Positions 1,754 through 56,869 of a stretch of 64,000 bases of DNA are shown piece after piece. The translations under genes were made by a program, and so were the position numbers. The DNA is taken from contig NZ_CP048117.1 in NCBI RefSeq assembly GCF_000469135.2, positions 1,401,501 to 1,465,500 of the forward strand, read 5' to 3'. This DNA is from Bacillus sp. SB49 (lineage in GTDB: Bacteria > Bacillota > Bacilli > Bacillales > Halobacillaceae). Below the pieces are notes generated by a model. The model ran no database searches and was not told the origin of the DNA. It saw only the letters and a program-made list of their open reading frames with translations. Every line of letters starts with the position of its first letter. Positions within the stretch are counted from its first letter, which is position 1.

Positions 1754-1806
1754 TATGCAGCATAGACGATACATATGGAGACTAAAGTAAAAGAAAAGCT
1801 ATGATA

Positions 1807-43162: not shown

Positions 43163-43230
43163 TTTGTGGTTGATATGGAGCATTTGAATAAGTGTTCTGT
43201 AAAGGGTTATTTGTTCCTCGAAGTGGATGT

Positions 43231-43292
43231 TTATCTCGGAACTGAGTCTTTCGCTAAAGGGCAGGTTAGTTGAAGACTCAGTTTCGAGATAA
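43231..43292 (+). repeat. Array boundary element R3: repeat with inverted left arm
   Basis: The top strand starts with a normal repeat (TATCTCGGAACTGAGTCTT, 8 nt, GGGCAGG, ending TTAGTTGAA). The left arm then recurs inverted at 43273-43292, giving 20-bp arms with one mismatch around a 22-nt loop. This is the only copy with this form and it is the first in the array. Confidence 0.8.
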
Positions 43293-43375
43293 TTTTATTT
43301 TTCCGATAACTGGAAGAGTGATAGAATATTTCTAAAGTGTATAGTAAGTTAAATGTAATAACGGGGGTGATTTTC

Positions 43376-44215
43376 TTGAGGACATTATTAAAAATTGACT
43401 CTAAAGATGGAGTATCTATTACTTTCCTACGTCCTTTTTCTGATGAAGAATATGAAGCACTTACAGGTCCAATGAGGATAGAGAGCTTTCATCGGACCAA
43501 TGTGCAAATGAGGGATATTGTTCGAACGAATGGTCAGGAACTTGAGGATTTTATATTAGATATTAAGAATAACAGAGAGTCTTATAAGCAAAAAGATCAC
43601 CAATTATTAATTGAAGCAAATCGCTTACTTCTAAATTTTTTATCTAGTTTTACTACATTTATTGATCATTGTAAAAGGCAGTACAGCATCCATTTAGATG
43701 TACTTAAGGAAGAATTTGAACAAAGAGACCGGAAGTATTTCGACCAATATTTCGAATATCGATTCTTTAAACAAATGCGAAACATTATTTCGCATATCGC
43801 TTTTCCTCTTTCTAAGACACGCCTAGACAAAGAAGGTTTCCATATCATAATGGTAAAAAAGGAGCTTTTGAAATTTGATTGGAAAAGAGTGGTTTCAAGA
43901 GATATTGAAACTTTCGAAGAAGAAATCGATGTACTACCAATGATCCAAAACCTCTGTGAACAGGTAAAGTGGTTAAGTTTTGATATTATGTATGACTACA
44001 AAGAAAAGATTATTGAAGCATTTGAGGCTTATCAAAAAGTGGCTACAGAAGTGCAAGGCGAATTCGGGTTCAGTGAGGCTGGGTCATTCGAAGAGTTAAG
44101 GAGATTAGAAAAGCCTAGAATACAACCATTTTCTATATCTCAAATTCATAAAGCCATTCAAGATTTAAATGAGCATCCAAGGATCAAAATAAGAATTACC
44201 CATCAATCTGAATGA
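43376..44215 (+). CDS. Cassette gene 1: hypothetical helical protein
   Basis: About 279 residues from TTG 43376, preceded by GGGGGTGA. Charged, mostly helical, no membrane segment; central HCKRQYSIHLDVLKEEFEQR and FFKQMRNIISHIAFPLSKTR. The R-N-I-I-S-H stretch is compatible with a HEPN-like Rx4-6H motif, but I do not rely on it. First gene after the boundary element. Confidence 0.7.
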   Translation: MRTLLKIDSKDGVSITFLRPFSDEEYEALTGPMRIESFHRTNVQMRDIVRTNGQELEDFILDIKNNRESYKQKDHQLLIEANRLLLNFLSSFTTFIDHCKRQYSIHLDVLKEEFEQRDRKYFDQYFEYRFFKQMRNIISHIAFPLSKTRLDKEGFHIIMVKKELLKFDWKRVVSRDIETFEEEIDVLPMIQNLCEQVKWLSFDIMYDYKEKIIEAFEAYQKVATEVQGEFGFSEAGSFEELRRLEKPRIQPFSISQIHKAIQDLNEHPRIKIRITHQSE

Positions 44216-44332
44216 AACTAGCTGTCTTATTCATAATTAATCGAACTTCATTAAGTTCCTAGAAAAGTATTTTGTTTTAAATTATGTTTAGTTTTAAACT
44301 TAAGAGCGCTAAAAATCGTACTCCACAAAATA

Positions 44333-44377
44333 TATCTCGAATTCAAGTCTTCCGTTCTAGGGGCGATTGCTTAATAG
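44333..44377 (+). repeat. Cassette repeat R4
   Basis: TATCTCGAATTCAAGTCTT, 8 nt (CCGTTCTA), GGGGC, tail GCTTAATAG. Confidence 0.85.
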
Positions 44378-44463
44378 AGTGTTCGCTATATTACATAAGT
44401 TCAGGTGGGAATTCAGCTGTTCCAACTAAAGAAGCCGGAAACTCATATAAGGAGTGATTATAA

Positions 44464-45018
44464 ATGCAGGGGAAAAATATTAAGCTTGTGATTGGTGCAG
44501 GAGAACATAACAATAATCCGGGTTGGATTCATACCCAGAAAGACGAAGTGAATTTACTAGATGAAGCTACCTGGGAAGCTAACTTTAAGATAAATTCAAT
44601 TGAAGCCATTTTAGCAGAACACGTCTGGGAACATCTGACCTTTGAAGAGGGGATACGAGCTGCTGAGATATGTATTAAATATTTAAGAGAAGGTGGGTAC
44701 GTCCGTTGTGCGGTTCCCGATGGATATTTTCCTGATGAAAAGTATCAACAAATCGTACAAGTTGGAGGTCCAGGACCAGCCGATCATCCCGCAGCGAGTC
44801 ATAAAATAGTACATAATTATAATTCAATATCCAACATGTTCAAGAATGTAGGATTTGAAGTGAAATTACTTGAATATTGTGATGAAGAAGGGCAATTTCA
44901 TGCGAACTCATGGAGTGGAAAAGATGGAGTTATCTTTCGCTCTAAACAATTTGATCCTAGAAACCAAGGGGAAGAATTAGCATTTCCATCGCTTATTATT
45001 GATGCCGTAAAGCCTTAA
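44464..45018 (+). CDS. Cassette gene 2: SAM-dependent methyltransferase-like protein
   Basis: 184 residues. KLVIGAGEHNNNPGWIHTQ is motif I region, and EAILAEHVWEHLTFEEG (as in predicted methyltransferases of the COG4627 kind) precedes LREGGYVRCAVPDGYFPD. AAGGAG supports the ATG. Substrate unknown. Repeat R5 starts 46 nt after the stop. Confidence 0.78.
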   Translation: MQGKNIKLVIGAGEHNNNPGWIHTQKDEVNLLDEATWEANFKINSIEAILAEHVWEHLTFEEGIRAAEICIKYLREGGYVRCAVPDGYFPDEKYQQIVQVGGPGPADHPAASHKIVHNYNSISNMFKNVGFEVKLLEYCDEEGQFHANSWSGKDGVIFRSKQFDPRNQGEELAFPSLIIDAVKP

Positions 45019-45063
45019 TTATTTAATTAAATGCGAGCAATAAACGTAGTCTTTCCTTTTAAA

Positions 45064-45109
45064 TATCTCGACTTCGAATCTTCAAGTAAAGGGGGTTTTA
45101 GTTGAATAA
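45064..45109 (+). repeat. Cassette repeat R5
   Basis: TATCTCGACTTCGAATCTT, 8 nt (CAAGTAAA), GGGGGT, tail AGTTGAATAA. Confidence 0.85.
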
Positions 45110-45121
45110 ATTAAATAAGAT

Positions 45122-45160
45122 AATCGGTTCCTGAATTTTGTAAAGGAACCGATTTTTTAT
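45122..45160 (+). terminator. Terminator after R5
   Basis: AATCGGTTCC pairs with GGAACCGATT, followed by T4. It stops plus-strand transcription from cassettes 1-2 before the minus-strand gene. Confidence 0.8.
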
Positions 45161-45585
45161 GCATAATTTTCCTTAACGCTATATATTCGCATTTTCCTAA
45201 CCTTTTCAATATATAACCTTGCCCTTTCGATGCCTTGGCCTCTTAAATCCTCTAATTTAACGCTTCCTTCTTGGGGATAACAAAATGAAACTATCACCCT
45301 CTCCAAAAAGGAAAATATGCTTGTGATTAATGATCCTCTCATAAGTTTAGGGAGATCATTATTGTACATTTGATGCTTTTCTAACCAGTCGTCAACTTCT
45401 TTCATCCAAGTATCATCATCTATATCATCAAGAGAAACCATTGTAGCTTCCTCAAAATATTTTATTGATTCTTTATTTAACTGTTTTTCTACATAAGATG
45501 AATACTCTTCAAACACTCGAATTTGCTTTAATACTATATGTTCATATGCGAAATATTTTAAAGCCTTATTATCTTCCAAGTTCAT
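45157..45585 (-). CDS. Cassette gene on minus strand: hypothetical helical protein
   Basis: 142 residues, helical and acidic at the start; LPKLMRGSLITSIFSFLERV resembles the core of phage-defence or HEPN-like proteins but no catalytic motif is clear. It lies in the R5-R6 unit, opposite to the next gene, while the repeats keep the plus orientation. Confidence 0.65.
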   Translation of the reverse strand: MNLEDNKALKYFAYEHIVLKQIRVFEEYSSYVEKQLNKESIKYFEEATMVSLDDIDDDTWMKEVDDWLEKHQMYNNDLPKLMRGSLITSIFSFLERVIVSFCYPQEGSVKLEDLRGQGIERARLYIEKVRKMRIYSVKENYA

Positions 45586-45797
45586 CCCCCTCTTACTAAA
45601 ATTTAATACTATGCTCGACCTAATCTTCCACCATACTTAACCCTACACTTCTCTCCATATGAACAATCCTTTTATTCGGTTTTTTTATATATTTTACCAT
45701 AATAGCGCTTCGCCAAATTATATAAGAGACACAAACTCCCAACATTGAAGGGATCCTCTCTTTGTTTGATAAATAAGACTATAAAGTGTTTTGCGGT

Positions 45798-45829
45798 TGT
45801 TGTTTGAAGGTAAATTTGAAATAATTGGA
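45798..45829 (+). promoter_or_regulatory. Putative promoter inside a cassette
   Basis: TTGTTG, 17 nt and AATAAT, within TTTGAAATAATTGGAATGA. The same block with a TTGAGA -35 precedes the gene at 52320, and a similar block lies at 56831. Confidence 0.45.
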
Positions 45830-45877
45830 ATGAATGAACGGAAGTTAACCAACTGCTGAATGAAAGGGTGGTTATTT

Positions 45878-46813
45878 TTGGAGCACTTTAAACAAAGGTT
45901 GGAAGAAATGAAATGGGTACCACTTCATATAGAATGCATTACTGGTGCACATGCGGGTGATATTTTCCGATTTGAAATTATAAATCAGAATGAGGAAAAG
46001 AAAAAATTTATTTATAAGGAATTTGCTGAGGGGAGAAACAATGAAATAGAAGTATATAAGAAGTTAGAAAATCATCTACAACCATTAACCAAGCTGGTTA
46101 AATGGTATGAGTCTAATCCGCAAGCCATTCTTATGGTTGATTTAGGAAGGCCTTTGAAAGATGATTTCATGGAATTACCTTTACATAGTAAAAAGAAGTC
46201 GATTGTATCTATTCTCCAACGACTTTCTTATCTATATAGCTTAAAGGTTGATCAAACCGCTCTAACCCTGGATACTCACTCTATTACATATGAATGGTCT
46301 GACTGGGCAATTGAACAATTAAAGTTATTGAATGCAAGACACGAATGGGCATCTGATTGGTCCAAATTTATAGAATATGCTTACCAAAAATTAAAACTAG
46401 GTGATTATAAAGTAAGAGGTCCTTTAACTCTCACTCATGGCGATCCTCACCTTGAGAATGTTTTTAGTTACGATAATGAAGTTTGGTTCATTGACTGGGA
46501 ATGGGCTGCAATTGGTTCACCTTTAAGGGATATAACTATATTGTTGCAAGATGTATATGAGGAAGAACTGGTGCAGTACACATATAGAGCTTATAAAGAA
46601 TTATTAGATAGTAAAAAGATATTGATAAGTAATGATGCATATAGAAGAGATTTTCACCATTTATATATAGATCATACAACAATGATGTTGGCATGGGAAA
46701 TTGATAAGTATTTTCAGGGTTATACTTCAGAAGCAAGGATTAAGGAAATTGTAGAATTTAAGATGAAAGAAATTAAAAGGGTGGTCAATGAAGAGGCAGG
46801 CGTATCTCAATAG
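45878..46813 (+). CDS. Cassette gene: aminoglycoside phosphotransferase-like kinase
   Basis: About 311 residues. Brenner motif LTHGDPHLENVF with catalytic Asp, metal Asp in WFIDWEWAAIG, and RFEIINQNEEKKKFIYKEF as N-lobe lysine strand. Start TTG 45878 after AAAGGGTGG, or ATG 45860. Low GC unlike the APH-like gene at 18980. May phosphorylate choline, an antibiotic or another small molecule. Confidence 0.85.
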   Translation: MEHFKQRLEEMKWVPLHIECITGAHAGDIFRFEIINQNEEKKKFIYKEFAEGRNNEIEVYKKLENHLQPLTKLVKWYESNPQAILMVDLGRPLKDDFMELPLHSKKKSIVSILQRLSYLYSLKVDQTALTLDTHSITYEWSDWAIEQLKLLNARHEWASDWSKFIEYAYQKLKLGDYKVRGPLTLTHGDPHLENVFSYDNEVWFIDWEWAAIGSPLRDITILLQDVYEEELVQYTYRAYKELLDSKKILISNDAYRRDFHHLYIDHTTMMLAWEIDKYFQGYTSEARIKEIVEFKMKEIKRVVNEEAGVSQ

Positions 46814-46853
46814 CGGTAAAATACGGACATGGGTATACAAGGGAGTGATTGAG

Positions 46854-46899
46854 TATCTTGATTTCGAGTCTTCCGTATAAGGGGGCTTTTCTTTATTAA
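46854..46899 (+). repeat. Cassette repeat R6
   Basis: TATCTTGATTTCGAGTCTT, 8 nt (CCGTATAA), GGGGGC, tail CTTTATTAA. Confidence 0.88.
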
Positions 46900-46924
46900 T
46901 TAATGTCCTCGGAGGTGATTATGT

Positions 46925-47131
46925 ATGGAGAATCAAAGGTTATCAAAATTAGATATATGGCGAGAAAAATATGGAGCACTAGTAATTGCTTTAGCTTGTC
47001 TTTATAGTGCAATTAGCAGTTGGGGACAAAATTGGATCCTTACGAGTGTTTTAGTTTTCGGCACATTTGTCTGTGGAATATTTAGTTTCTTTGATATAAA
47101 GAGAGCTTTGATGGAAAAAGGTTCAAGGTAA
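46925..47131 (+). CDS. Cassette gene: 68-residue membrane protein
   Basis: Two hydrophobic segments (ALVIALACLYSAIS; ILTSVLVFGTFVCGIFSFF) and a basic tail. GGAGGTGA precedes the ATG. No family recognised. Confidence 0.7.
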   Translation: MENQRLSKLDIWREKYGALVIALACLYSAISSWGQNWILTSVLVFGTFVCGIFSFFDIKRALMEKGSR

Positions 47132-47201
47132 TAATTTGTCGCTAATGTGATCAAGATCATTCCAATGTAACCCTTATTGATAAAGGAAGATGGGCTAATA
47201 T

Positions 47202-47247
47202 TATTTTGAAATCGAGTCTTACGTAAACGGGGGCAATTGCAAAATAG
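47202..47247 (+). repeat. Cassette repeat R7
   Basis: TATTTTGAAATCGAGTCTT, 8 nt (ACGTAAAC), GGGGGC, tail GCAAAATAG. Confidence 0.85.
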
Positions 47248-47269
47248 TCGAATGCTAGGTGGTGGGGTT

Positions 47270-47458
47270 TTGAAGAAAGGGACGTTATTAAAAATCATAG
47301 GTATTCCTGTTGGTGTATATGTTGTTACATCTTTATGTGAATTATTTTTTTGGAACGATATGACTCTAACAAGTAAGGCGATAATCATTATAATGACGAC
47401 CATAACGTTATATCTCACAAACTTTACAAACTTTGTTAAAAAATATGAAAAAGATTAG
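47270..47458 (+). CDS. Cassette gene: 62-residue membrane protein
   Basis: TTG 47270 after GGTGGGG. Two hydrophobic segments and a basic end (FVKKYEKD). The start lies 22 nt after R7. Not recognised. Confidence 0.65.
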   Translation: MKKGTLLKIIGIPVGVYVVTSLCELFFWNDMTLTSKAIIIIMTTITLYLTNFTNFVKKYEKD

Positions 47459-47482
47459 TGATTCAAGCCATTTTTAAAATTG

Positions 47483-47528
47483 TATCTCGATTGTGAGACT
47501 TCAACTATTGGGGGCTTTACTGCAAAAA
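47483..47528 (+). repeat. Cassette repeat R8
   Basis: TATCTCGATTGTGAGACTT, 8 nt (CAACTATT), GGGGGC, tail CTGCAAAAAA. Confidence 0.85.
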
Positions 47529-47569
47529 AGATTTTATTTATTAGAGCTTTTAGGTTTGGAGTGAATTAA

Positions 47570-47770
47570 TTGAAAGACCCAGATGAGTTATCTAAAAAGG
47601 GAAGATATCAAAGAGGATTTGCAGTTATTTATCTTGTTGTATCCTTATTTTTTATAACAGTAGTATTAGAAGATGACTATAACGTTTTTATTGTTGCCGC
47701 CATCACATTATCAATATATGTATTAGTGAAATTTCTAATAGGTGTTTACGTAGACAAAATGGAGAGATAG
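47570..47770 (+). CDS. Cassette gene: 66-residue membrane protein
   Basis: TTG 47570 with TTTGGAG upstream. Charged N-terminus then two hydrophobic segments (GFAVIYLVVSLFFITVV; FIVAAITLSIYVLVKFLIG). Not recognised. Confidence 0.65.
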   Translation: MKDPDELSKKGRYQRGFAVIYLVVSLFFITVVLEDDYNVFIVAAITLSIYVLVKFLIGVYVDKMER

Positions 47771-47789
47771 CTATTATAAAGTGGAAATA

Positions 47790-47835
47790 TATCTCGAAAT
47801 CGAGTATTCACGAATCGGGGGCTTTAGTTGAATAA
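47790..47835 (+). repeat. Cassette repeat R9
   Basis: TATCTCGAAATCGAGTATT, 8 nt (CACGAATC), GGGGGC, tail AGTTGAATAA. It has the perfect dyad CTCGA/TCGAG. Confidence 0.88.
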
Positions 47836-47839
47836 GCCT

Positions 47840-47879
47840 AACAAAAAGAACTTCCATAAAAATGGAAGTTCTTTTTGTT
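47840..47879 (+). terminator. Terminator inside the array
   Basis: AACAAAAAGAACTTCCAT and its exact complement around a 4-nt loop, with T5 in the 3' arm. It would stop read-through from upstream cassettes. Confidence 0.85.
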
Positions 47880-47992
47880 AGCATTGTCAAAGATAAATTT
47901 AAACAGAGCCAAAGCTTAAAATAACCTGGGAAGAGAAAAAATATTCTGTTATTCTGAATTATATGGAAATATTTATAAACGGAGGAGATTGG

Positions 47993-49801
47993 ATGGAGGA
48001 ATTCAGGTATCCAGAAAGATGGGAAATCAACTCAATTTTTGATGCTTCTTCAGATTCAACTGTTATACATAATCATTTAAAGGAGATAAATCAGGAAGTA
48101 ACGAAGTTAGAGGTTCTTATTGGAAATATGGAATATTTTGAGGGTGGGGGCTATTCAGTTCACTTAAAGAAAACTATTCAAATAGTTGAAAAAACAAAAG
48201 CTGATTTATCACAGCTTTCTTCTTTCTTGACTTGTCGAAGTGCAGAAAATACCCAGGATCAACAAGTCTTTGGCTGGAAAGGAAAGTTTTATAAGTTAAG
48301 TGTGAAGTTTAATTCGTTAGTCCGTAAAGTACAAAAGTGGGTTGCTAATTTGAATGATGAGTCATGGAACGAAATTTCAAGAAACGAAGATTTAAAGCAT
48401 TATCAATTCATACTTAAAGAATGGCGTCGGCAAGAACAAAAGGGATTACCTGAAAGAGAAGAAAAGACCATTGAATTACTGCTTGAAGATGGATATCACG
48501 CCTGGGGAGATTTGTATAAATCATTAGTAGCTGAAATAAGGCTTAAGATAAATATGAATGGAACTAGCGAGGAACTATCTATTGCCCAAACTAGAAATTT
48601 GCGCTCCCATCCTAAAGAGGATCTCCGTAGGGACTCTTATTTTACACTTAATAACACCTGGAAAAATAATTCAACAACTATTTCTACTATTATTAACCGA
48701 ATTGCTGGTGTTCGGAGAACTATTAATGATCTGAGAGGGGAAAGCGAATTACATAAATCTCTAAGGAATAACAGAATAAAAGAGAGAACATTAGATGCCA
48801 TGTGGAATGTGGTTAATCAGAATAAACAGCCTTTTGTTCGTTACTTAAATCAAAAATCAAAATTGCTAGGTAATAATTCTATGCGGGCCTATGATTTTTG
48901 GGCCCCAGTAAATAAAGAAGTTCAGTCAATCAATTACCAGGATGGTATAGAATTTATTTTAAATCACTTTCGAACACATAGTCCTGAATTAGAAGCGTTC
49001 TCTCGAAAAGCAATTCAACAAAATTGGGTAGAAGTAGAGGATCGTGCCAATAAGGCTGGTTATGCTTTCTGTGCTGGATTCCCTTCGTCGGGAGAGTCAA
49101 GGATTTTCATGACCTATGGTGGTCGTATTACTGATACACTTACTCTAGCTCATGAGTTAGGGCATGCTTTCCATAATCATGCTATGAGAGACGTGAACTA
49201 TTTGAACAGAGATTATCCAATGACTTTAGCTGAGACAGCTTCAACTTACTCAGAAATGATTGTATTAAACGCGGCATTAAAAGAAGCAGAGTCACAGGCT
49301 CAAAAGTTATTTTTGATAGATGAAAAACTTAAGCGAAGTGTTATGAACTTTATGGAGATTCATTCAAGATTTTTATTTGAGAAAAATCTATACAAAGAGA
49401 GACAACACGGCTATGTTACTGTAGGTCAGTTAAATAAAATGATGAGAGAGTCTTTGGAGGAAGGGTATCAAGGATCTATGGACGACTTATCTGAATATTC
49501 CTGGGCTTCAACCCCACACTTTTATCACACAAAAAGTCCTTTTTATAACTTTCCTTACACGTTCGGGTATTTGTTGGCTATGGGCATCTACGAAAAAGTA
49601 GAGCAAGAAGGGTCAGATTTTGAAACTAAGTACATATCTCTTCTTAGGGATTCTGGCCGGATGAATGTAGAAGACTTGGTCATGAAGCATTTAGGAGAAG
49701 ATATTACAAAAGAAGACTTCTGGGAGATAGGTATGCGTCGATGTGTTCAGGATGTTGAAGAATACATAAAAGTAAGTGAACAACTGTTTAGTCATCCATG
49801 A
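47993..49801 (+). CDS. Cassette gene: M3-family oligopeptidase (PepF-like)
   Basis: About 602 residues from ATG 47993 (GGAGGAG upstream). Zinc site LAHELGHAFHNH (HExxH) and downstream Glu in LAETASTYSEM; FCAGFPSSGESRIFMTYGG and FYNFPYTFGYLLAMGIY match oligoendopeptidase F. Longest cassette gene. Cytosolic. It probably cuts short peptides; role in the array unknown. Confidence 0.9.
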   Translation: MEEFRYPERWEINSIFDASSDSTVIHNHLKEINQEVTKLEVLIGNMEYFEGGGYSVHLKKTIQIVEKTKADLSQLSSFLTCRSAENTQDQQVFGWKGKFYKLSVKFNSLVRKVQKWVANLNDESWNEISRNEDLKHYQFILKEWRRQEQKGLPEREEKTIELLLEDGYHAWGDLYKSLVAEIRLKINMNGTSEELSIAQTRNLRSHPKEDLRRDSYFTLNNTWKNNSTTISTIINRIAGVRRTINDLRGESELHKSLRNNRIKERTLDAMWNVVNQNKQPFVRYLNQKSKLLGNNSMRAYDFWAPVNKEVQSINYQDGIEFILNHFRTHSPELEAFSRKAIQQNWVEVEDRANKAGYAFCAGFPSSGESRIFMTYGGRITDTLTLAHELGHAFHNHAMRDVNYLNRDYPMTLAETASTYSEMIVLNAALKEAESQAQKLFLIDEKLKRSVMNFMEIHSRFLFEKNLYKERQHGYVTVGQLNKMMRESLEEGYQGSMDDLSEYSWASTPHFYHTKSPFYNFPYTFGYLLAMGIYEKVEQEGSDFETKYISLLRDSGRMNVEDLVMKHLGEDITKEDFWEIGMRRCVQDVEEYIKVSEQLFSHP

Positions 49802-49854
49802 AATCTTAGCTGTGACGTATTTTGTAACTGAGGGATTTGATCAGTTTAATTAAT

Positions 49855-49900
49855 TATCTCGACTTTAAGTCTTAAAAAAACGGGGGCGTTTGCTTAATAA
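49855..49900 (+). repeat. Cassette repeat R10
   Basis: TATCTCGACTTTAAGTCTT, 8 nt (AAAAAAAC), GGGGGC, tail GCTTAATAA. Confidence 0.88.
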
Positions 49901-49911
49901 AAGCAATCGTC

Positions 49912-50103: not shown

Positions 50104-50187
50104 TAGTAAAACTCCTTTTACATATCTAGTATCCTTTTCCTTTCTGGGTAAAACTAAAAGGAGTAAGTTTGTTGTCGTTTATAAATT

Positions 50188-50233
50188 TATCTTGAAACTG
50201 AGTTTTATAAAAACGGGGGCAATAGTTTAATTA
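50188..50233 (+). repeat. Cassette repeat R11
   Basis: TATCTTGAAACTGAGTTTT, 8 nt (ATAAAAAC), GGGGGC, tail GTTTAATTA. Confidence 0.85.
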
Positions 50234-50280
50234 AGAAGTAATAGTTACTCTCTGCTAAAACTTATCGATTAGGAAAGGAA

Positions 50281-50802
50281 GTGTTACAATTGGAAGCTAA
50301 AATAGAGCCATTAAAGGGATTTACTCCACAAATCGGTCACCTAGTATCGCAAATGAATTATGTGAGAAAAACAACGTTTGAAGCTGTATCAGGACTAACA
50401 ACCTCTGAATTGGATTTTTTACCAAGTAACGATGGGAATAGTATTGGAGCCCTCTTATTACATATAGCTGCTGTAGAGAAAGGATTTCAAATAGAAATCT
50501 TTGAGGGTCGAAGACCAAACAATCAGGAAATGTTGGAATGGGGGTCTCCTTATAATCTTGGCGAAAAAGGAAGAAGAGACATTAAAGGATATCCATTAAA
50601 ATTTTATATCACAAAACTTGAAGAAGTAAGACATAAAACACTTCAGAAATTGGCAACGTTGACTGATGATTGGTTATATGAAAACAGACTATGGGACAAT
50701 TACTCCTCTAACAACTACTTCATTTGGTTTCACGTTTTTGAAGATGAAATCAATCATAGAGGGCAAATAAGAATGATTAGAAAAATGTTGCCACAAGAAT
50801 AG
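50281..50802 (+). CDS. Cassette gene: DinB family protein
   Basis: 173 residues, four-helix DinB/DUF664 fold: MNYVRKTTFEAVSGLTTSEL, GALLLHIAAVEKGFQIEIF, and HVFEDEINHRGQIRMIRK with the metal His residues. Start GTG 50281 or TTG 50290 after AGGAAAGGAA. The family includes bacillithiol S-transferases and other metal-dependent thiol transferases. Confidence 0.85.
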   Translation: MLQLEAKIEPLKGFTPQIGHLVSQMNYVRKTTFEAVSGLTTSELDFLPSNDGNSIGALLLHIAAVEKGFQIEIFEGRRPNNQEMLEWGSPYNLGEKGRRDIKGYPLKFYITKLEEVRHKTLQKLATLTDDWLYENRLWDNYSSNNYFIWFHVFEDEINHRGQIRMIRKMLPQE

Positions 50803-50840
50803 TGATATATTTCATCGTAGATTATGCGAGTTTTTTAGAT

Positions 50841-50886
50841 TATCTTGAATTCAAATCTTAAACAAAAGGGGGCAATAGCTGAAGAA
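50841..50886 (+). repeat. Cassette repeat R12
   Basis: TATCTTGAATTCAAATCTT, 8 nt (AAACAAAA), GGGGGC, tail GCTGAAGAA. Confidence 0.83.
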
Positions 50887-50910
50887 TGAAGTTAGGTAGG
50901 GGGGCTGTAT

Positions 50911-51258
50911 TTGAACATAGATACTGATTCATTGGTTACTTTCCTTATTACGTGGGGAATACCAACTTTTATGGTTGTTAGAACTTATTTAAAAATGGAT
51001 TCAGATGATAGGAACTCTGCAAAGAAGGATTTTAAATCGGCACATTTTGTTTTCACAATCGGGTCACTTGTAATAGGTTATTTTTTCGCTTCTATTGGAA
51101 ATCTACTGACACTAAATATCATAAAGTTACCTGGGATTTTCTTAATGATCATAGCAGGTATTACAATTACGGTGGATATGTGGAGAAAAAATAAAGCTAA
51201 AAGTATGTTAACACCAATACTTATTGCAGTTGCAATCTTCTTCTTGATTAAACCGTAG
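50911..51258 (+). CDS. Cassette gene: 115-residue membrane protein
   Basis: TTG 50911 after TAGGGGGG. Four hydrophobic segments. The C-terminus ends in a helix running to the stop. Not recognised. Confidence 0.65.
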   Translation: MNIDTDSLVTFLITWGIPTFMVVRTYLKMDSDDRNSAKKDFKSAHFVFTIGSLVIGYFFASIGNLLTLNIIKLPGIFLMIIAGITITVDMWRKNKAKSMLTPILIAVAIFFLIKP

Positions 51259-51314
51259 TGACACAGTATTCATTTTTGTGCTAACGGAAGCGTTCGTTGA
51301 AATTTTGCTTAATA

Positions 51315-51359
51315 TATCTTGAATTAAAGTCTTAATGAAACGGGGCTTTAATTAAATAA
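51315..51359 (+). repeat. Cassette repeat R13
   Basis: TATCTTGAATTAAAGTCTT, 8 nt (AATGAAAC), GGGGC (one G short), tail TTAAATAA. Confidence 0.83.
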
Positions 51360-51405
51360 TGTCTATCGCAAATTATGTCTTAAATGGTAGTGAAAGGAGG
51401 ATTTT

Positions 51406-51564
51406 ATGAGCTTTTGGACCTGGATAGCAATTGCTATCGCCTTGATCAGTGGAATACTTTTTTCTAACTCTTCTAAGAAAAAGACTGAAAGAAAACATAT
51501 AGTTGCACTTACTTGGTTTATCATCGCAGTAATCTTATTTTTTGTATGGTGGTTTACACGTTGA
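51406..51564 (+). CDS. Cassette gene: 52-residue membrane protein
   Basis: MSFWTWIAIAIALISGILF, a basic loop SSKKKTERKH, then a second hydrophobic segment ending WWFTR. AAAGGAGG lies 7 nt before the ATG. It fills its cassette. Confidence 0.65.
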   Translation: MSFWTWIAIAIALISGILFSNSSKKKTERKHIVALTWFIIAVILFFVWWFTR

Positions 51565-51602
51565 CTTAATACAGTTAATTAGTTCATAGCTCTATTTGAA
51601 GA

Positions 51603-51648
51603 CATCTCGACACTGAGTCTTCAAGTAACGGGGGCGATACTGAAAAAT
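51603..51648 (+). repeat. Cassette repeat R14
   Basis: CATCTCGACACTGAGTCTT, 8 nt (CAAGTAAC), GGGGGC, tail CTGAAAAAT. Confidence 0.85.
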
Positions 51649-51675
51649 GAGCGATTATTTGAAGGAGGTTAAATC

Positions 51676-52146
51676 TTGAAAGAGATAATCAAATTAATTG
51701 AAGATAAAGAATTTAAAACAGCTCGTGAAAAACTTCTCCCATTAGTTAGAGAAAGTACGAAAAATGCGGAACTAAACTATTACAGTGCAGTTTCACATGA
51801 TGCTTTAGGTATGGAGCGAGAAGCTATACCTTTCTACGAAGCAGCTCTTTCTTATGGGATAAATGGAGAGTTGCGTGAGCGTACATATGTACAATTGGGT
51901 AGTAGTTTGAGGTGTATTGGTGAATACCAAAAAAGTAAGGCTATATTAGAAGAAGGAGAAATCGAATATCCAGATAATCTAGCGATAAAAGCCTTCTTGG
52001 CCATTGTTATGTACAATTTAAACGAAGAAGAAAATTCAGTTAGAAGTTTGTTGGAAACATTAGTTAAAACATCGTCCGATCCATGGATTAATAGCTACAG
52101 AAAAGCTATAGATTTCTATTCCGGCAAACTAAATCAAACATGGTGA
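51676..52146 (+). CDS. Cassette gene: tetratricopeptide-repeat protein
   Basis: 156 residues from TTG 51676 (GAAGGAGG upstream). Three to four TPR helix pairs (AELNYYSAVSHDALGMEREA, TYVQLGSSLRCIGEYQKSKA). A protein-binding scaffold; partner unknown. Resembles B. subtilis YobR/YaaT-like short TPR proteins only in general. Confidence 0.8.
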   Translation: MKEIIKLIEDKEFKTAREKLLPLVRESTKNAELNYYSAVSHDALGMEREAIPFYEAALSYGINGELRERTYVQLGSSLRCIGEYQKSKAILEEGEIEYPDNLAIKAFLAIVMYNLNEEENSVRSLLETLVKTSSDPWINSYRKAIDFYSGKLNQTW

Positions 52147-52167
52147 AATATTCTGTTTTAAAGCAAA

Positions 52168-52213
52168 TATCTTGATTTGAAGTTTTCCAGTATTGGGGGC
52201 TATCTTAAACAAG
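52168..52213 (+). repeat. Cassette repeat R15
   Basis: TATCTTGATTTGAAGTTTT, 8 nt (CCAGTATT), GGGGGC, tail CTTAAACAAG. Confidence 0.83.
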
Positions 52214-52241
52214 GTATCCCCCTCTATACTGATAATATTTA

Positions 52242-52272
52242 TTGAGATATTACGCTTTATTTGAAATAATTG
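52242..52272 (+). promoter_or_regulatory. Putative promoter inside a cassette
   Basis: TTGAGA, 17 nt and AATAAT, in TTTGAAATAATTGGGATGA, matching the block before the gene at 45878. It gives the protease gene its own transcription start. Confidence 0.5.
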
Positions 52273-52319
52273 GGATGAGATGAACAGTGTCTATTAATTT
52301 TTATTTTGAGGTGGATTGA

Positions 52320-53108
52320 ATGGAATACGCAGTTTCAGTAACAGATACGTCTTATACAGAAGAAATTGAAAAAAACGGACGACTCCTTTTAGAAAAACTT
52401 ACCCATTTCTCACGTTCGCTAGAATCCATAACTACTTTTGGAACCCCGAGGGGAATCATTTTTCATGATTTGAAATCGGCTACGGAGCTTTATTCAACAA
52501 TCCCTCTCCCAGCATATACATCAAGAGACTTAATACATATTAACCCGCTGATAGATACATGGAAGGACATTTTTTTATCAACGACTAGAGGGCTTGTAAA
52601 GGCTAAACAGTATTATAATGATCTTTCAATGGATGATATTGCTGTTATTGCAGCACATGAGTTAACTCACCATTCTGATTTTTTTAATTCTGAATTTGAA
52701 GATTGGGATGAAGAAGAGAATATGTGGTTTGAAGAAGGGATGTGTTTTTACATCCCACGTAAAATAATTTTATCAACGGAAAAATTCAATTCGATTATGG
52801 AGGTTGAGCGTAGTTTAATTGAGTTATATAAGGCAGACTATGGAGAATATACGATTGACCTTTTTGGTGAGTCTGGATATCGAGGTGGACATGACCTTGG
52901 TTATTCATCTGCTTTTTATGATTACTGGAGAAGCACTCATATCGTTCACGTATTGATTGATAAATATTGTGGTGGAGACATAGATAAGTTAATTAAATAC
53001 TATAAGGATTGGGCAAATAATTCTTCTGAGATCAACCTCCAGAAGTTCTTTATTGAGAAGTTTAAACTATCTAAGCATGAAGCAAAGGAATTATGGTTGG
53101 GTGCGTAA
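52320..53108 (+). CDS. Cassette gene: gluzincin-type metalloprotease-like protein
   Basis: 262 residues. AVIAAHELTHHSDFF carries HExxH and MWFEEGMCFYIPR the third-ligand Glu region of gluzincins. FGTPRGIIFHDLKSA at the start and DYWRSTHIVHVLIDKYCGGD near the end. GAGGTGG precedes the ATG. No signal peptide, so cytosolic. Family not firmly recognised; peptide or protein substrate unknown. Confidence 0.8.
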   Translation: MEYAVSVTDTSYTEEIEKNGRLLLEKLTHFSRSLESITTFGTPRGIIFHDLKSATELYSTIPLPAYTSRDLIHINPLIDTWKDIFLSTTRGLVKAKQYYNDLSMDDIAVIAAHELTHHSDFFNSEFEDWDEEENMWFEEGMCFYIPRKIILSTEKFNSIMEVERSLIELYKADYGEYTIDLFGESGYRGGHDLGYSSAFYDYWRSTHIVHVLIDKYCGGDIDKLIKYYKDWANNSSEINLQKFFIEKFKLSKHEAKELWLGA

Positions 53109-53118
53109 CCCTTTGAAA

Positions 53119-53164
53119 TACTTTGAATTCAAGTCTTCAATAAACGGGGGCTTATATTTAATAA
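53119..53164 (+). repeat. Cassette repeat R16
   Basis: TACTTTGAATTCAAGTCTT, 8 nt (CAATAAAC), GGGGGC, tail ATTTAATAA. It starts 10 nt after the protease stop. Confidence 0.85.
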
Positions 53165-53201
53165 GAATAGCCATTAGATAACTTCGTGAAAGGAAGATTA
53201 A

Positions 53202-53366
53202 ATGTACTTAGCAATAACTATAATATCTCTTGTTCTTTTGATACTTCTAGTGATTCTGAACCGTAAACAGCTATTTTCTGATGCAAACAATGCTAAGCTC
53301 CTCATAGTGATTTTCGTATTTCTTCCTTTGATGGTTATTGGAATAGTGGTAGCAGCATTTATATGA
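53202..53366 (+). CDS. Cassette gene: 54-residue membrane protein
   Basis: Two hydrophobic segments (LAITIISLVLLILLVIL; LLIVIFVFLPLMVIGIVVAA) joined by a polar loop. AAAGGAAG lies upstream of ATG 53202. It fills its cassette. Confidence 0.62.
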   Translation: MYLAITIISLVLLILLVILNRKQLFSDANNAKLLIVIFVFLPLMVIGIVVAAFI

Positions 53367-53386
53367 TTACAATATAGGTGTTTTAA

Positions 53387-53432
53387 TGTCTCGATATCAA
53401 GTTTTCCGTTAACGGAGGCGTCTATATAATGG
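53387..53432 (+). repeat. Cassette repeat R17
   Basis: TGTCTCGATATCAAGTTTT, 8 nt (CCGTTAAC), GGAGGC, tail ATATAATGG. Confidence 0.8.
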
Positions 53433-53491
53433 TCTTAATGTAGCTGAAATACTCTTGTCTGGTCTATTTGAAGGAATTAGGGGGGGGGCAA

Positions 53492-53722
53492 TTGGGAAAA
53501 GCTATAATAGTTTTTGTATTCCTAACTTTGTACGTCTTCAGTATGTGGTTAAGTATCATTGCATTTAAATATAAGAAATTTTTAGGTTATCTCATAACTT
53601 TTCTTCTACCATTTATCATAGGTATGTTATTTGCTTCAACATCTGTTTTTTTTATTTCACCTGTCTTATTAGTTAGTTTAATAACTTATCACTTTTTCGT
53701 GATAAAAACTAACGGAACATAA
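53492..53722 (+). CDS. Cassette gene: 76-residue membrane protein
   Basis: TTG 53492 after a G9 run. Two to three hydrophobic segments, including FLGYLITFLLPFIIGMLFAS. An upstream TTG 53468 is possible. The homopolymeric G9 tract in the ribosome site could vary in length and alter expression. Confidence 0.62.
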   Translation: MGKAIIVFVFLTLYVFSMWLSIIAFKYKKFLGYLITFLLPFIIGMLFASTSVFFISPVLLVSLITYHFFVIKTNGT

Positions 53723-53781
53723 ATTTATTTTACAGAGAACCTGACATTTGTGATTGATTATTATTGGATATAGAGTAAATA

Positions 53782-53827
53782 AATCTCGAAATCGAGTCTT
53801 CTGTTATAGGGGGCTTTATTATTAAAG
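53782..53827 (+). repeat. Cassette repeat R18
   Basis: AATCTCGAAATCGAGTCTT, 8 nt (CTGTTATA), GGGGGC, tail ATTATTAAAG. The dyad CTCGA/TCGAG is perfect. Confidence 0.87.
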
Positions 53828-53842
53828 AGGAAAGGAAATTTG

Positions 53843-54129
53843 ATGAATTTCAGTTATGTGAAGTTTGAAGTGTTATTACCAGAAGAATACATTGTACCTT
53901 TACGTGACCAACTGAGCAATAATAAAGTATTAACTGTTGGAGAGTATGATCATGTAGTTCTTATACTGAAACCAAAGGGTACTGGAGGCCCCTAGAATCT
54001 TCAAACCCTTATTCAGGTGAAAAGAAAAAAGTAACATTTGGATCAAAGTGCAAAATGGAATTTAAGTTACCTTACAAGAAAATAGAGGAGCTTAGAATAA
54101 TTACGTTAGCTTTTAGAATGATACTTTGA
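53843..54129 (+). pseudogene. Cassette gene with frameshift: Nif3-insert/CutA-like protein
   Basis: ATG 53843 (AGGAAAGG upstream) reads MNFSYVKFEVLLPEEYIVPL and stops at 53993. Shifting frame near AAACCAAAGGG continues as GYWRPLESSNPYSGEKKKV with KCKMEFKLPYKKIEELR, then TGA at 54127, inside repeat R19. Together this matches the small dimer domain found in and beside Nif3-like proteins. The C-terminal end is missing where R19 begins. Confidence 0.6.
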
Positions 54130-54167
54130 TATGGAGTCTTAAAGTATAGTGGCCTTTAGTGAAGGTA
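54122..54167 (+). repeat. Cassette repeat R19, degenerate
   Basis: TACTTTGATATGGAGTCTT, 8 nt (AAAGTATA), GTGGCC, tail GTGAAGG. The G-block has decayed. Confidence 0.65.
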
Positions 54168-54186
54168 AGATACATGATGTCTCGTA

Positions 54187-54218
54187 CAAAAAGAGCCTTA
54201 GTAAAACTAAGACTCTTT
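54187..54218 (-). terminator. Terminator of the minus-strand DinB gene
   Basis: AAAGAGTCTTAGT pairs with ACTAAGGCTCTTT on the minus strand (one mismatch), followed by TTTGT. Confidence 0.8.
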
Positions 54219-54223
54219 AAGAA

Positions 54224-54694
54224 TCAGTCCCATATGTCAGCTCTTTCAACACCAGCAGACCTTAAGTAATCTAAGAGTTGACCAGTATGTATAGATTCGT
54301 GATAAGCAATTCTCAATAGCATATCTCCTAGTTCTCGGATGTACCCGACATTGGATCGATCTATCTGTATGTTTGATAAATCATTTTCACTGAATGTGTG
54401 GATGGTCTTAATAAATTCATCCCTCAGAGACTGTGAAAAGTCGACTTCTTCCTCCGGAGATATTAACGGACGATTTGTAAACGGTGACTCAAAGTCAGGA
54501 ACGCTACCCTGATTCTTTATAGCTAAATGGTAATAATGTTCTGACTCCAATACATGACGAATCATTTCTAAGCATGACATGGCGTTGATATCTGGACGCC
54601 AGTTATAGGCTTCTTCAGGAATTGACTTCCACACTTTGAGACTTCTTCTTCTAACTTCGTTTAAATTTAAAATAACCAAATCAATTGAATTCAA
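54224..54694 (-). CDS. Cassette gene on minus strand: DinB family protein
   Basis: 156 residues. Four-helix DinB fold with metal His in MIRHVLESEHYYHLAI and IAYHESIHTGQLLDYL. It carries its own terminator. Only weakly similar to the DinB protein at 50281, so not a duplication. Confidence 0.85.
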   Translation of the reverse strand: MNSIDLVILNLNEVRRRSLKVWKSIPEEAYNWRPDINAMSCLEMIRHVLESEHYYHLAIKNQGSVPDFESPFTNRPLISPEEEVDFSQSLRDEFIKTIHTFSENDLSNIQIDRSNVGYIRELGDMLLRIAYHESIHTGQLLDYLRSAGVERADIWD

Positions 54695-54784
54695 TTTTTT
54701 CCCTCCTCTTCAATTATCATACTAGAACAAACGTTCTTTTGGAAGAGAGTAATTAAAGACGTAATTCGACGTTTTTATGTAACA

Positions 54785-54830
54785 TATCTCAGTGTCGAGT
54801 CTTCCTGTGACTGGAACTTTTCAGGATTAC
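54785..54830 (+). repeat. Cassette repeat R20, degenerate
   Basis: TATCTCAGTGTCGAGTCTT, then CCTGTGACTGGAACTTTTCA, where the G-block is lost. Confidence 0.65.
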
Positions 54831-54891
54831 AAAAAGATCTTGTTATTGCTTTTTGAGGTAAGGATTTAGTTGAATATAGAAATAATGTACT

Positions 54892-55197
54892 TTGGAGGAG
54901 GAGAGAAGGATTCAAGAGAAAATCAACTTGTGGTCATTTTTCTTTTCAATTATTTGTGTGATTTTGTTTCTAACAGTTTCTTTCTCAGGTTGGTTCAGTA
55001 ATTCCAAAATGATGGGTATTCACCCTTTCATTTTAATTTTATTTATTACGCTATTTACATTTCTGGCTGGTGTATTTGGTTTTTCTGGTGTTAGAGACTG
55101 GAAGGGTATGGCAAGAAGTGTATTTTCAATAATAGTAACACTTAGTTTATCAGCGTTTCTGGGTTGTGTTTTACTATTTGGAAGTTTATTTAACTAA
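54892..55197 (+). CDS. Cassette gene: ~100-residue membrane protein
   Basis: Three hydrophobic segments. The start is odd: GGAGGAGGAG (54894-54903) is itself in frame, so TTG 54892 has no ribosome site while ATT 54910 is ideally spaced. A rare ATT start, or a mis-set start, is possible. Confidence 0.6.
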   Translation: MEEERRIQEKINLWSFFFSIICVILFLTVSFSGWFSNSKMMGIHPFILILFITLFTFLAGVFGFSGVRDWKGMARSVFSIIVTLSLSAFLGCVLLFGSLFN

Positions 55198-55223
55198 TGA
55201 GTGTTAAAGAAAATAATAAGATA

Positions 55224-55265
55224 TATCATGATATCAAGTCTTATAAACCGCGTGCAATTATCCAG
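55224..55265 (+). repeat. Cassette repeat R21, degenerate
   Basis: TATCATGATATCAAGTCTT, then TATAAACCGCGTGCAATT. The left arm is intact and the right arm has decayed. Confidence 0.6.
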
Positions 55266-55373
55266 CAAGGGTAGTCACTTCCTTACTCAGTATAGGGCAG
55301 TCAGTAAGCAACCGGACTTTGGTAAAGGGAAAAAAGATCTTTGGAAAATAAAAAGGCTACTTTCTAAAAAATA

Positions 55374-55399
55374 AAAGAACCAAAAAAGCTTGGTTCTTT
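55374..55399 (-). terminator. Terminator of the 59-residue gene
   Basis: AAAGAACCAA pairs with TTGGTTCTTT on the minus strand, followed by TATTTTTT. Confidence 0.82.
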
Positions 55400-55577
55400 A
55401 ATCTCTCATGGATCCCGCCTCACGAGATGTCATGTCCCCTACACCTTTGCTTACATCCTGTTGAATTTCCTGTTTTACTTTTTTTGGATCTGTTCCTGAA
55501 CAGCCTGCCTTCATCGTTGATTTCTGTGCCTCTTTTTGTTCCCCATTAATTCCGGGTGTTATCTGGTTCTTTTTCAT
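55398..55577 (-). CDS. Small hydrophilic protein (59 residues), possible spore-related
   Basis: Not preceded by a repeat. Start ATG 55577 after GGAGGTGA. KKNQITPGINGEQKEAQKST at the start, one Cys, and VSKGVGDMTSREAGSMRD at the end. The TSRE/A-x-G-S ending recalls small acid-soluble spore proteins, but the length and Cys do not. Lies between the array's decayed end and the acetyltransferase. Confidence 0.6.
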   Translation of the reverse strand: MKKNQITPGINGEQKEAQKSTMKAGCSGTDPKKVKQEIQQDVSKGVGDMTSREAGSMRD

Positions 55578-55776
55578 TTACCAATCACCTCCATGTCAGT
55601 AGGTTTGGCAAGAAATTCAAGATTATCCCTAATTAGAAAAGCTAGCATTGTTTTTGAATGTGAATAGGAGGAATATGTAAAAAGTACTTAAATACATGTG
55701 ATACTCTTGCAGTGTGCCTCTAAAATTGGCTAACGGACAGTATTTTAGAAGACATACAATGATAAAGGTTGTGCTA

Positions 55777-56292
55777 ATGTTGCAAATATATTTTCGAACT
55801 AATCGTTTAATTGCAAGACAACTAAAACTTAGTGACCTCGAACAATTTCATACGATGCAAAGCAATATAAAAGTTATGAAATATACATTGGGAAGAACAA
55901 AAACAAAAGAAGAAAATGCTGCTGAATTAAAAAACATCATCAGTGAGTATACGCTGAGTGAACCGAACAAAATTGTTATGGGGTTGTCTGAAGTATCAGA
56001 TGTAACTTGTACTTTAATAGGTACCTGCGCTATTACATCGCTTGATGAAGAGTTTAATGAGGTGGGGTACAGGTTGTTGGAAGAAAGTTGGGGAAATGGG
56101 TATGGACGTGAAATTCTGGAAGGTCTTTTGACATATTGCTTCGACGATTTGAAGGTAAAGAAAGTGAAGGCAGAAGTCGAAAAAGAAAATATCTACTCTG
56201 TTCGTATACTGGAGAGTTCTCTTTTGAATTATGTTAGAGAATACTATGAAGGGGATAATCTTGTACGCCTTTATGTCATAGAAAAGGATTGA
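55777..56292 (+). CDS. GNAT acetyltransferase
   Basis: About 171 residues. FRTNRLIARQLKLSDLEQF, GTCAITSLDEEFNEVGYRLL and ESWGNGYGREILEGLLTYCF (acetyl-CoA loop). AAAGGTTG upstream supports ATG 55777; the longer frame to 55714 lacks a ribosome site. AT-rich like the cassettes, but no intact repeat follows. Confidence 0.82.
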   Translation: MLQIYFRTNRLIARQLKLSDLEQFHTMQSNIKVMKYTLGRTKTKEENAAELKNIISEYTLSEPNKIVMGLSEVSDVTCTLIGTCAITSLDEEFNEVGYRLLEESWGNGYGREILEGLLTYCFDDLKVKKVKAEVEKENIYSVRILESSLLNYVREYYEGDNLVRLYVIEKD

Positions 56293-56473
56293 TTTTTTAA
56301 ATCTCATCTAAACGATTTTCTAACTATTTGCAACATCAGTTGTATAAGACTATGAAGCAGTCACAAGAAATGATTTTCCATATCAGTTGTTAAACCTGTT
56401 TAACTGATGGAGCAGTAAACTTTAATAAGTAAAATGCGTTAGCGTTCAAATAACAATATATAGGGGTGTAGAA

Positions 56474-56758
56474 ATGTGGGTAATATTTGGGGTTATTGCC
56501 ATAGTAGTTACTGTTGTAAACCTTTTTTTGTATGCAGCAGGAAAGGATTATAAGCTTGCTATGGCGATGGCATTATCATTTACAGCATTAACAATTTGTG
56601 CAGATTACAGTTATCTAAATCGGTGGATAGAAGCAGAAGATTGGGCGGCTATATCGGATGTAGTACCTGGTATGACAACGGTATTTTGGTTTTTGACAAT
56701 TGTCTCTATCTTACTGAATATATCACCTATACTTTTAGAACGAATAGGTAAGAAATAA
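56474..56758 (+). CDS. 94-residue membrane protein at the array end
   Basis: Three hydrophobic segments (VIFGVIAIVVTVVNLFLYAA; LAMAMALSFTALTI; TVFWFLTIVSILLNISPILL). AGGGGTG precedes the ATG. The stop runs directly into the right half of a repeat. Confidence 0.7.
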   Translation: MWVIFGVIAIVVTVVNLFLYAAGKDYKLAMAMALSFTALTICADYSYLNRWIEAEDWAAISDVVPGMTTVFWFLTIVSILLNISPILLERIGKK

Positions 56759-56779
56759 AACGGGGTCTTTGTTGAATAA
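56752..56779 (+). repeat. Cassette repeat R22, right half only
   Basis: AAAACGGGGTC and the tail TTTGTTGAATAA are present, but the left arm is absent and replaced by the end of the membrane-protein gene. It marks the downstream edge of the array. Confidence 0.6.
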
Positions 56780-56869
56780 ACCCTCGCAGAACCTTTTCAT
56801 AAGAAAATAGGCTTGAGCCGAGGTGTTAGTTTTGAAATAATTGGCAGTAGAGAAGGGGAGGTGGAAGCA

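Follow-up and report, generated by a model that had tools for sequence, protein, structure and literature searches.

Integrons, the classic bacterial device for stockpiling and shuffling genes, depend on the integrase IntI, in which the spacing between the catalytic arginine and histidine (R-to-H) is about 131 amino acids (aa). The dif core of the XerC/XerD system has an 11-6-11 geometry, and small dif-like sites are also used, with host XerCD, by integrative mobile elements exploiting Xer (IMEX) and by plasmid multimer-resolution sites. One source gives an IntI-specific domain near patch III as the integron-defining feature (PMC9668308), and a survey with IntegronFinder 2.0 describes integrons as extremely rare in Firmicutes, reporting Limnochorda pilosa as the only complete case plus a few clusters of attC sites lacking an integrase (CALINs) (PMC9024848). 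The locus considered here lies in a 64,000-nt stretch of Bacillus sp. SB49 (contig NZ_CP048117.1, positions 1,401,501 to 1,465,500; hereafter the window), in which an original prediction made from the letters alone proposed an integron-like cassette array. With a probability of roughly 85%, the region is a mobile gene-cassette array whose repeats are recombination sites exchanged at a GGGGGC centre, with a putative dedicated Xer-like recombinase. It apparently functions like an integron but does not qualify as one, and would be a separate Bacillales cassette system in which neither the enzyme nor the repeat is that of integrons.

The array is defined by a repeat of about 46 nt (consensus near TATATCTYGAAWTYRAGTCTTCNNNTAACGGGGGCTTTAGTTGAATAA), which spaces unrelated genes over 43,230-55,262 of the window, always on the plus strand, with 15 clear copies at 44,331-53,829 and, beyond these, three weak copies near 54,121, 54,783 and 55,217. 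Across the 3.77-Mb genome, a degenerate 33-nt pattern (at most three mismatches) matches 16 times forward and never in reverse, with no match for the backward-read control. R1, a sequence model made from 16 window copies, finds 32 places at E≤10 in the same genome, 24 of them at E<0.01 (best 1.9e-11), and all 24 fall into three clusters: the main array, a small array at the left end of the window, and a region at ~648-650 kb. The originally proposed repeat is real and far above chance, and its strong copies are confined to these three places rather than standing at most gene ends genome-wide. R1 also has matches in 36 of the 37 family genomes searched, and in 5 of 24 genomes from elsewhere in the order, each of these 5 holding one to three weak copies; copy number per genome ranges from 0 to at least 98, and the relatives' copies mostly form single-orientation arrays. 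The AT-richness noted at the outset is borne out by a drop in GC content from 0.49 at 40-42 kb to 0.33-0.36 at 44-56 kb.

The strongest evidence for mobility comes from the ends of shared units. A set of 311 inter-repeat units, drawn from 18 stretches in 10 genomes, was searched for pairs that share at least 85% identity across 200 nt but have unrelated neighbours, at the unit 3′ end (END) or 5′ end (START); pairs below 85% or 200 nt, neighbouring units of the same array, and pairs with alike outer flanks (3 of 43 END candidates) were left out before counting. The pairs are not independent, the 40 END pairs representing 30 families and the 19 START pairs 18. Identity among END pairs stays at 0.75-1.0 up to repeat position 35 and reaches background at 36; among START pairs it is near background until about position 29 and 0.7-1.0 from 36 onward. 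The best joint breakpoints are 30-34 (END) and 30-35 (START), and GGGGGC occupies positions 30-35. Arrays fetched later gave 14 START pairs (six families) with a best fit at 30-33 and 10 END pairs (10 families) with a best fit at 29, identity in the latter being 0.70 at position 35 and 0.00 at 36. Three units of the window itself recur elsewhere: units 2 and 11 in genome G008 at 98.2% and 97.2%, each followed there by an unrelated unit, and unit 12 in G004 at 94.7%, with unrelated neighbours on both sides. Bacillus, Neobacillus, Lysinibacillus and other genera carry a second arm type, near GATTGTGAAGAATTGTACTTAAACTAAC-GGGTGC, and at a looser limit of 75% identity its END junctions lie at the end of GGGTGC (identity 0.80 at 34 and 0.20 at 35, 10 pairs). 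By alignment, homologous gene-plus-repeat units are found between unrelated neighbours across species, with homology switching at the GGGGGC centre.

A search for unit differences between collinear arrays yielded one useful locus, on contig 4 of both G012 and G008, where a common left flank of 5.6 kb (93.9% identity) and a common array tail of 7.7 kb (98.3%) enclose 39 units in G008 and four in G012. A different G008 array matches the first three G012 units, together with the right half of the G012 head, at 99.8% identity for 4.4 kb. Base by base, the switch in the head falls at GGGCAGG, likeness at the third site stops right after GGGGGC, and the two tails become alike again from the centre of the tail site, where their lengths differ by one base. 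A check suggested for the cassette proposal was to look in related strains for gain or loss of single units with exact junctions; at this locus a change of many units, with junctions at the centre, is seen between species. Gene order is likewise not fixed among the species compared; a fixed order, like a repeat at most gene ends, had been named as refuting the proposal. A pair of Peribacillus plasmid regions, almost collinear and with the recombinase match split in two, was uninformative on units. Site strength falls with distance from the head in 12 of 15 arrays (p=0.002 in a Wilcoxon test of the first against the last third), the trend within single arrays being mostly not significant. Since the tail is kept, the head side is changed, and stronger sites lie near the head, this one locus and modest trend argue for change at the head-proximal end.

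Over 382 sites, the window-type core is dyad-symmetric about the middle of GGGGGC (score 0.49 at 32.5, at most 0.36 elsewhere), and 7 of its 11 majority core pairs are complementary; the recombination site would comprise a dyad core of approximately CTTCNNNTAAC-GGGGGC-TTTAGTTGAAT (11-6-11) and an accessory left arm, TATCTYGAAWTYRAGT. An Rfam search of the window returned no match reaching gathering score, and RNAalifold on the repeat gave four weak pairs with a covariation term of -0.01, so that no conserved structure was found. Folding of 8 of the 15 clear window sites showed no clear excess over shuffles in seven (z -1.6 to 1.3), and in the eighth the fold arises via a neighbouring hairpin. 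As a separate observation, 27 of 339 array sites in relatives have an inverted second arm 52-88 nt further on (arm control rate 14 of 1695), mostly past a hairpin that looks terminator-like by eye, so as to form one long imperfect palindrome; two sites at genome 648,213-650,038 also carry a hairpin and second arm.

These features bear on the possibility that RecA-type homologous recombination between repeat copies, with no site-specific enzyme, moved the units. The repeats are direct and numerous, and 37 of 44 family genomes have no close recombinase, but the copies, at about 46 nt, diverge at many positions, the junctions jointly converge on a six-base centre that is also the dyad centre, and the END junctions keep this position in genera whose arms are different; this account is accordingly improbable.

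Arrays typically open with a distinct palindromic site, or head, in which the left arm is variable like the array arms and the right half, GGGCAGGTTAGTTGAAGACTCAGTTTCGAGATA, is nearly constant. Thirty such heads were found in 29 of 42 stretches, all picked for holding sites. None of the 30 has a same-strand site (score at least 14) within 10 kb upstream, the upstream DNA examined reaching 5 kb or more for 23 of the heads and 10 kb or more for 10, and 27 have a site no more than 3.3 kb downstream; within the DNA examined, the head is on this evidence the 5′ boundary of the array. Head-like halves occur in 41 of 44 family genomes. The motif TGAAAC-N15..17-CG[TA][AC] follows 12 of the 30 heads, 43-44 nt from GGG in 11 (background 0.006 per 200 nt), and for 483 other sites there are 26 such motifs downstream on the array strand, against a single one on the opposite strand. 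TGAAAC-N16-CGTA is presumably a promoter of the extracytoplasmic function (ECF; sigma-W type) class. Another motif, TTTGAAATAATTGG (one mismatch allowed), was observed 36 times on the array strand and three times on the other in 1.29 Mb searched; it occurs at 45,815, 52,260 and 56,831 of the window and in many relatives, stands before cassette genes and 31 nt before the heads that follow the recombinase, and is perhaps a promoter.

The enzyme is suggested by a 280-aa tyrosine recombinase gene that ends about 100 nt before the head in G010, G002, G008 and G066, the head perhaps standing where an integron would have attI. It scores 218 bits against XerA (cut-off 220) and 205 bits against both XerC and XerD (below their cut-offs), and shares 31-36% identity with host Xers. 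Catalytic residues R138, K162, H229, R232, H255 and Y264 were assigned by motif in the G010 copy, and the R, HxxRH, second H and Y patterns match 65, 68, 54 and 61 of 68 intact copies, respectively. R138 and H229 are 91 aa apart, as against 95-97 in host Xers. By both profile and predicted catalytic residues, the recombinase is Xer-like.

Scanning of genome contigs gave 338 recombinase loci, and the counts that follow concern the best 80 of them, which cover many Bacillales genera. At least one site accompanies 58 loci, in orientations of 68:4 (group A) and 6:114 (group B), with none for reversed decoys; the window-trained model alone places sites in 22 loci (38:4 and 0:8). These numbers are to be read with the construction in mind: the type II site model was iterated on the same loci later counted, and the A/B split was made by list order after the orientations were known, with three loci moved by hand. 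Of the 46 group A loci, 9 have a same-strand site beginning 82-147 nt past the gene, and of the 34 group B loci, 14 have an opposite-strand site 63-96 nt past it. With sites on both sides in 29 loci, the gene itself looks like an array member. Group B forms a clade of 27 intact members with support 1.0, and all copies stand apart from Xers with support 0.4, in a tree that omits eight loci with partial matches or short ends; five more loci had internal stops. The recombinase is present in 8 of 72,556 plasmid records (E≤1e-60) and 1 of 50,697 phage records (37% identity). A Bacillales-type recombinase with two sites was also seen in a record named Chryseobacterium sp. ISL-80 (L202), where contamination seems likely.

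Host XerC/XerD might instead carry out the site-specific exchange, with the 280-aa enzyme a mere passenger. Two strong tyrosine recombinases of about 300 aa, taken as XerC and XerD, are present in 10 of 10 genomes searched, while the 280-aa enzyme is found in few, and the 11-6-11 core matches dif geometry. Against this, the enzyme adjoins the head in four close full-length cases and lies among consistently oriented sites in 58 of the best 80 of 338 loci, leaving host Xer exchange with little chance of being the correct account.

In the mechanism that we favour, exchange within the six-base GGGGGC makes the moving unit a right half-site, a gene, and a left half-site. The Xer-like recombinase would catalyse excision and insertion on duplex DNA, new units would enter near the head, and ECF-type promoters after many heads would express the first units. 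Because the recombinase gene is so often found among sites on both sides, it is probably carried along with the units, and frequently lost. No match to the 280-aa enzyme was found at E≤1e-40 in the genome of the window, so the array there is probably static now unless the enzyme is supplied from outside.

Several observations weigh against this mechanism. Breakpoints of single END pairs are scattered, with 22 of 40 at 34-37 and 18 elsewhere, and those of START pairs fall at 30 in 5 of 19 and at 49-85 in three; the held-out END optimum is at 29, with 30 and 34 trailing by 3.3 and 4.0 log units, and the START side in other genera is blurred (15 pairs). The recombinase is matched at E≤1e-40 in just 7 of 44 family genomes, broken copies included, and none is found at this limit in G012, one of the two genomes with unlike arrays at the shared locus. 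G066 possesses both recombinase and head, with the nearest site 11 kb off. Three more distant copies in the family have no such site in their 1.5-kb flanks, and others are broken. Heads are missing from 13 of 42 site-bearing stretches, and insertion at the GGGCAG centre of the head would put units 5′ of the constant half, yet arrays lie 3′ of it, which tells against simple insertion at that centre. Finally, no clean empty site for the window array was found among 21 other genomes of the genus, in which the flanking MFS gene has a relative in four, the HD-domain neighbour in two, and both together in none, at the limits used.

Comparison with integrons, both sedentary chromosomal ones and CALINs, shows extensive likeness. 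Both have units that mostly hold one gene, are unrelated to each other, stand in a single orientation and are exchanged with exact junctions; both also have a tyrosine recombinase, a special 5′ site, signs of a polar array, and arrays without an integrase, and here a promoter motif follows many heads. The differences lie in the enzyme and its site. The recombinase here is Xer-like and, with an R-to-H spacing of 91 aa that leaves no room for it, has no IntI-specific domain; its gene is often found between sites, reading with the array in one group and in the opposite direction in the other. The site consists of a short dyad core, in whose centre the crossover falls, and an accessory arm, and the window copies tested mostly form no strong single-strand fold of the attC kind (none clear in seven of eight). 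With no IntI above cut-off in the 44 family genomes (a search without a positive control), an Xer-like enzyme, and sites that mostly do not clearly fold, the array is not an integron as defined. The integron-cassette proposal therefore survives in its account of mobile gene-plus-repeat units, in one orientation and exchanged across species at one point of the repeat, and is not supported in its assignment to integrons.

A canonical chromosomal integron with IntI and attC, or an integrase-less remnant of one, gained by a Firmicute, could account for the small AT-rich genes, the single-orientation gene-plus-repeat units, and the special 5′ site, and integrase-less arrays are known as CALINs (PMC9024848). 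The integron-integrase model TIGR02249, however, exceeds its cut-off in 0 of 44 family genomes (and in 0 of 14 control genomes, a search therefore without a positive control), and the associated recombinase scores 95.6 bits against a cut-off of 265; together with the spacing and folding results above, this makes such an origin very improbable. That the repeat acts at gene ends solely in transcription termination or regulation is scarcely credible, since, for all that 27 of 339 sites reach an inverted arm through a mostly terminator-like hairpin, copies at E<0.01 are restricted to three genome places and exchange of units at the centre is left unexplained, although such a role can coexist with recombination.

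Likeness to XerC/XerD-dif and XerA extends to the recombinase family and the 11-6-11 core; XerC/XerD, in contrast, serves one chromosome-dimer site rather than many gene-carrying array sites, and the enzyme described here is separate from host Xers in the tree, albeit with the weak support given above. IMEX and plasmid multimer-resolution sites resemble the present system in that small dif-like sites move or resolve DNA, but these borrow host XerCD, whereas in the present system many relatives have a recombinase gene located among the sites.

The gene content of the array is listed in Table 1. It had been described as about 18 genes, each followed by the repeat; the repeat series stands, but the first copy is a palindromic head, four of 22 candidate genes are oriented against the repeats, the unit at 45,112-46,851 holds two genes, and the right edge is a bare core. 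Pfam families exceed their cut-offs in 6 of the 22 candidate frames (APH-type phosphotransferase, M3 peptidase, two DinB-type proteins, TPR, and GNAT), as expected from the earlier reading of the letters, which had also named a VOC protein; none is present among the 22, and the VOC gene sits in the second small array. Many of the remaining frames are short and hydrophobic by inspection. The stretch 56,378-56,756 recurs at 88% in G004, where a weak site (20.6 bits) then follows. The second array begins just left of the window, its head at genome 1,400,690-1,400,752 and its whole span at genome 1,400,690-1,403,349.

Table 1. Features of the main array and of the second small array, in window coordinates ("model", also found by the sequence model; "hydrophobic", by inspection)
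Feature	Position	Strand	Remarks
Array head, palindromic	43230-43293	+	left arm + AAGGGCAGG + constant inverted arm; arms match 12/14; DNA fold z -8.0
Unit 1 gene	43337-44215	+	292 aa, no Pfam match
Possible bare core in unit 1	near 43,357		AATAACGGGGGTGATT, by eye
Site 1	44331-44380	+	model
Unit 2 gene	44464-45018	+	184 aa, weakly methyltransferase-like (PF13489, 17.5 bits, below cut-off 27)
Site 2	45062-45111	+	model
Unit 3 gene a	45157-45585	-	142 aa, no Pfam match
Unit 3 gene b	45860-46813	+	APH-type phosphotransferase (PF01636, 35.5 bits, cut-off 23.2)
Site 3	46852-46901	+	model
Unit 4 gene	46925-47131	+	68 aa, hydrophobic
Site 4	47200-47249	+	model
Unit 5 gene	47237-47458	+	73 aa as listed, hydrophobic; start probably further downstream, given the overlap with site 4
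Site 5	47481-47530	+	model
Unit 6 gene	47570-47770	+	66 aa, hydrophobic
Site 6	47788-47837	+	top-scoring copy (1.9e-11), then strong hairpin
Unit 7 gene	47963-49801	+	oligoendopeptidase F-like M3 peptidase (PF01432, PF08439)
Site 7	49853-49902	+	model
Unit 8 gene	49912-50103	-	63 aa, hydrophobic
Site 8	50186-50235	+	model
Unit 9 gene	50281-50802	+	DinB/mycothiol-S-transferase fold (PF04978, PF12867)
Site 9	50839-50888	+	model
Unit 10 gene	50911-51258	+	115 aa, hydrophobic, no family over cut-off
Site 10	51313-51361	+	model
Unit 11 gene	51406-51564	+	52 aa, hydrophobic
Site 11	51601-51650	+	model
Unit 12 gene	51676-52146	+	TPR protein (PF12688)
Site 12	52166-52215	+	model
Unit 13 gene	52320-53108	+	262 aa, no Pfam match, HExxH motif by inspection
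Site 13	53117-53166	+	model
Unit 14 gene	53202-53366	+	54 aa, hydrophobic
Site 14	53385-53434	+	model
Unit 15 gene	53468-53722	+	84 aa, hydrophobic
Site 15	53780-53829	+	model
Unit 16 open frame	53840-53995	+	51 aa, perhaps a gene fragment
Degenerate site 16	54121-54163	+	sequence model E 5.9e-4
Unit 17 gene	54224-54694	-	DinB_2 (PF12867)
Degenerate site 17	54783-54830	+	7 mismatches; absent from sequence-model matches
Unit 18 gene	54892-55197	+	101 aa, hydrophobic
Degenerate site 18	55217-55262	+	repeat family D5; absent from sequence-model matches
Tail open frame	55398-55577	-	59 aa, no Pfam match
Tail gene	55714-56292	+	GNAT acetyltransferase (PF13302)
Tail gene	56474-56758	+	94 aa, hydrophobic, no Pfam match
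Bare final core	56757-56785	+	AAAACGGGGTCTTTGTTGAATAAA, no left arm, right array edge, by eye
Second array, first site	1189-1238	+	model
Second array, glyoxalase/VOC gene	1283-1753		PF00903, 34.4 bits, cut-off 20.6
Second array, degenerate last site	1806-1849	+	sequence model E 4.2e-4

Genome G002 presents a further observation. It contains 131 pattern matches (66+65, at most two mismatches, heads included), and at 18 of 20 places chosen among them (L218-L237) an element of 421-707 bp, mostly about 545, starts with TGGCAGG and the inverted arm and ends with the left arm and GGGAGC or a variant. Its targets resemble the bare core by eye, and it is perhaps a candidate non-coding cassette that has spread to secondary sites.

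Taken at its widest, the picture is of Bacillales with an integron of their own, derived from an Xer-type recombinase independently of IntI, a reading to which we would give somewhat less than an even chance. Its elements would be duplex 11-6-11 sites, an integrase that travels as a unit and is often lost, head-borne ECF promoters of the envelope-stress type for the first units, and the ~545-bp non-coding cassette, which in a single genome would have spread to core-like secondary sites in perhaps a hundred copies.

A literature search found no description of such a system in titles and abstract openings, with subscription journals and preprints mostly outside its scope, and surveys that search for IntI and attC would probably miss it. 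If the cassette reading is correct, soil, marine, and halophilic Bacillales would possess a second, apparently separate cassette platform, and the cassette-array design would have arisen more than once. The system could then account for many of the tiny accessory genes in these genomes, and would offer a testable recombinase with short sites.

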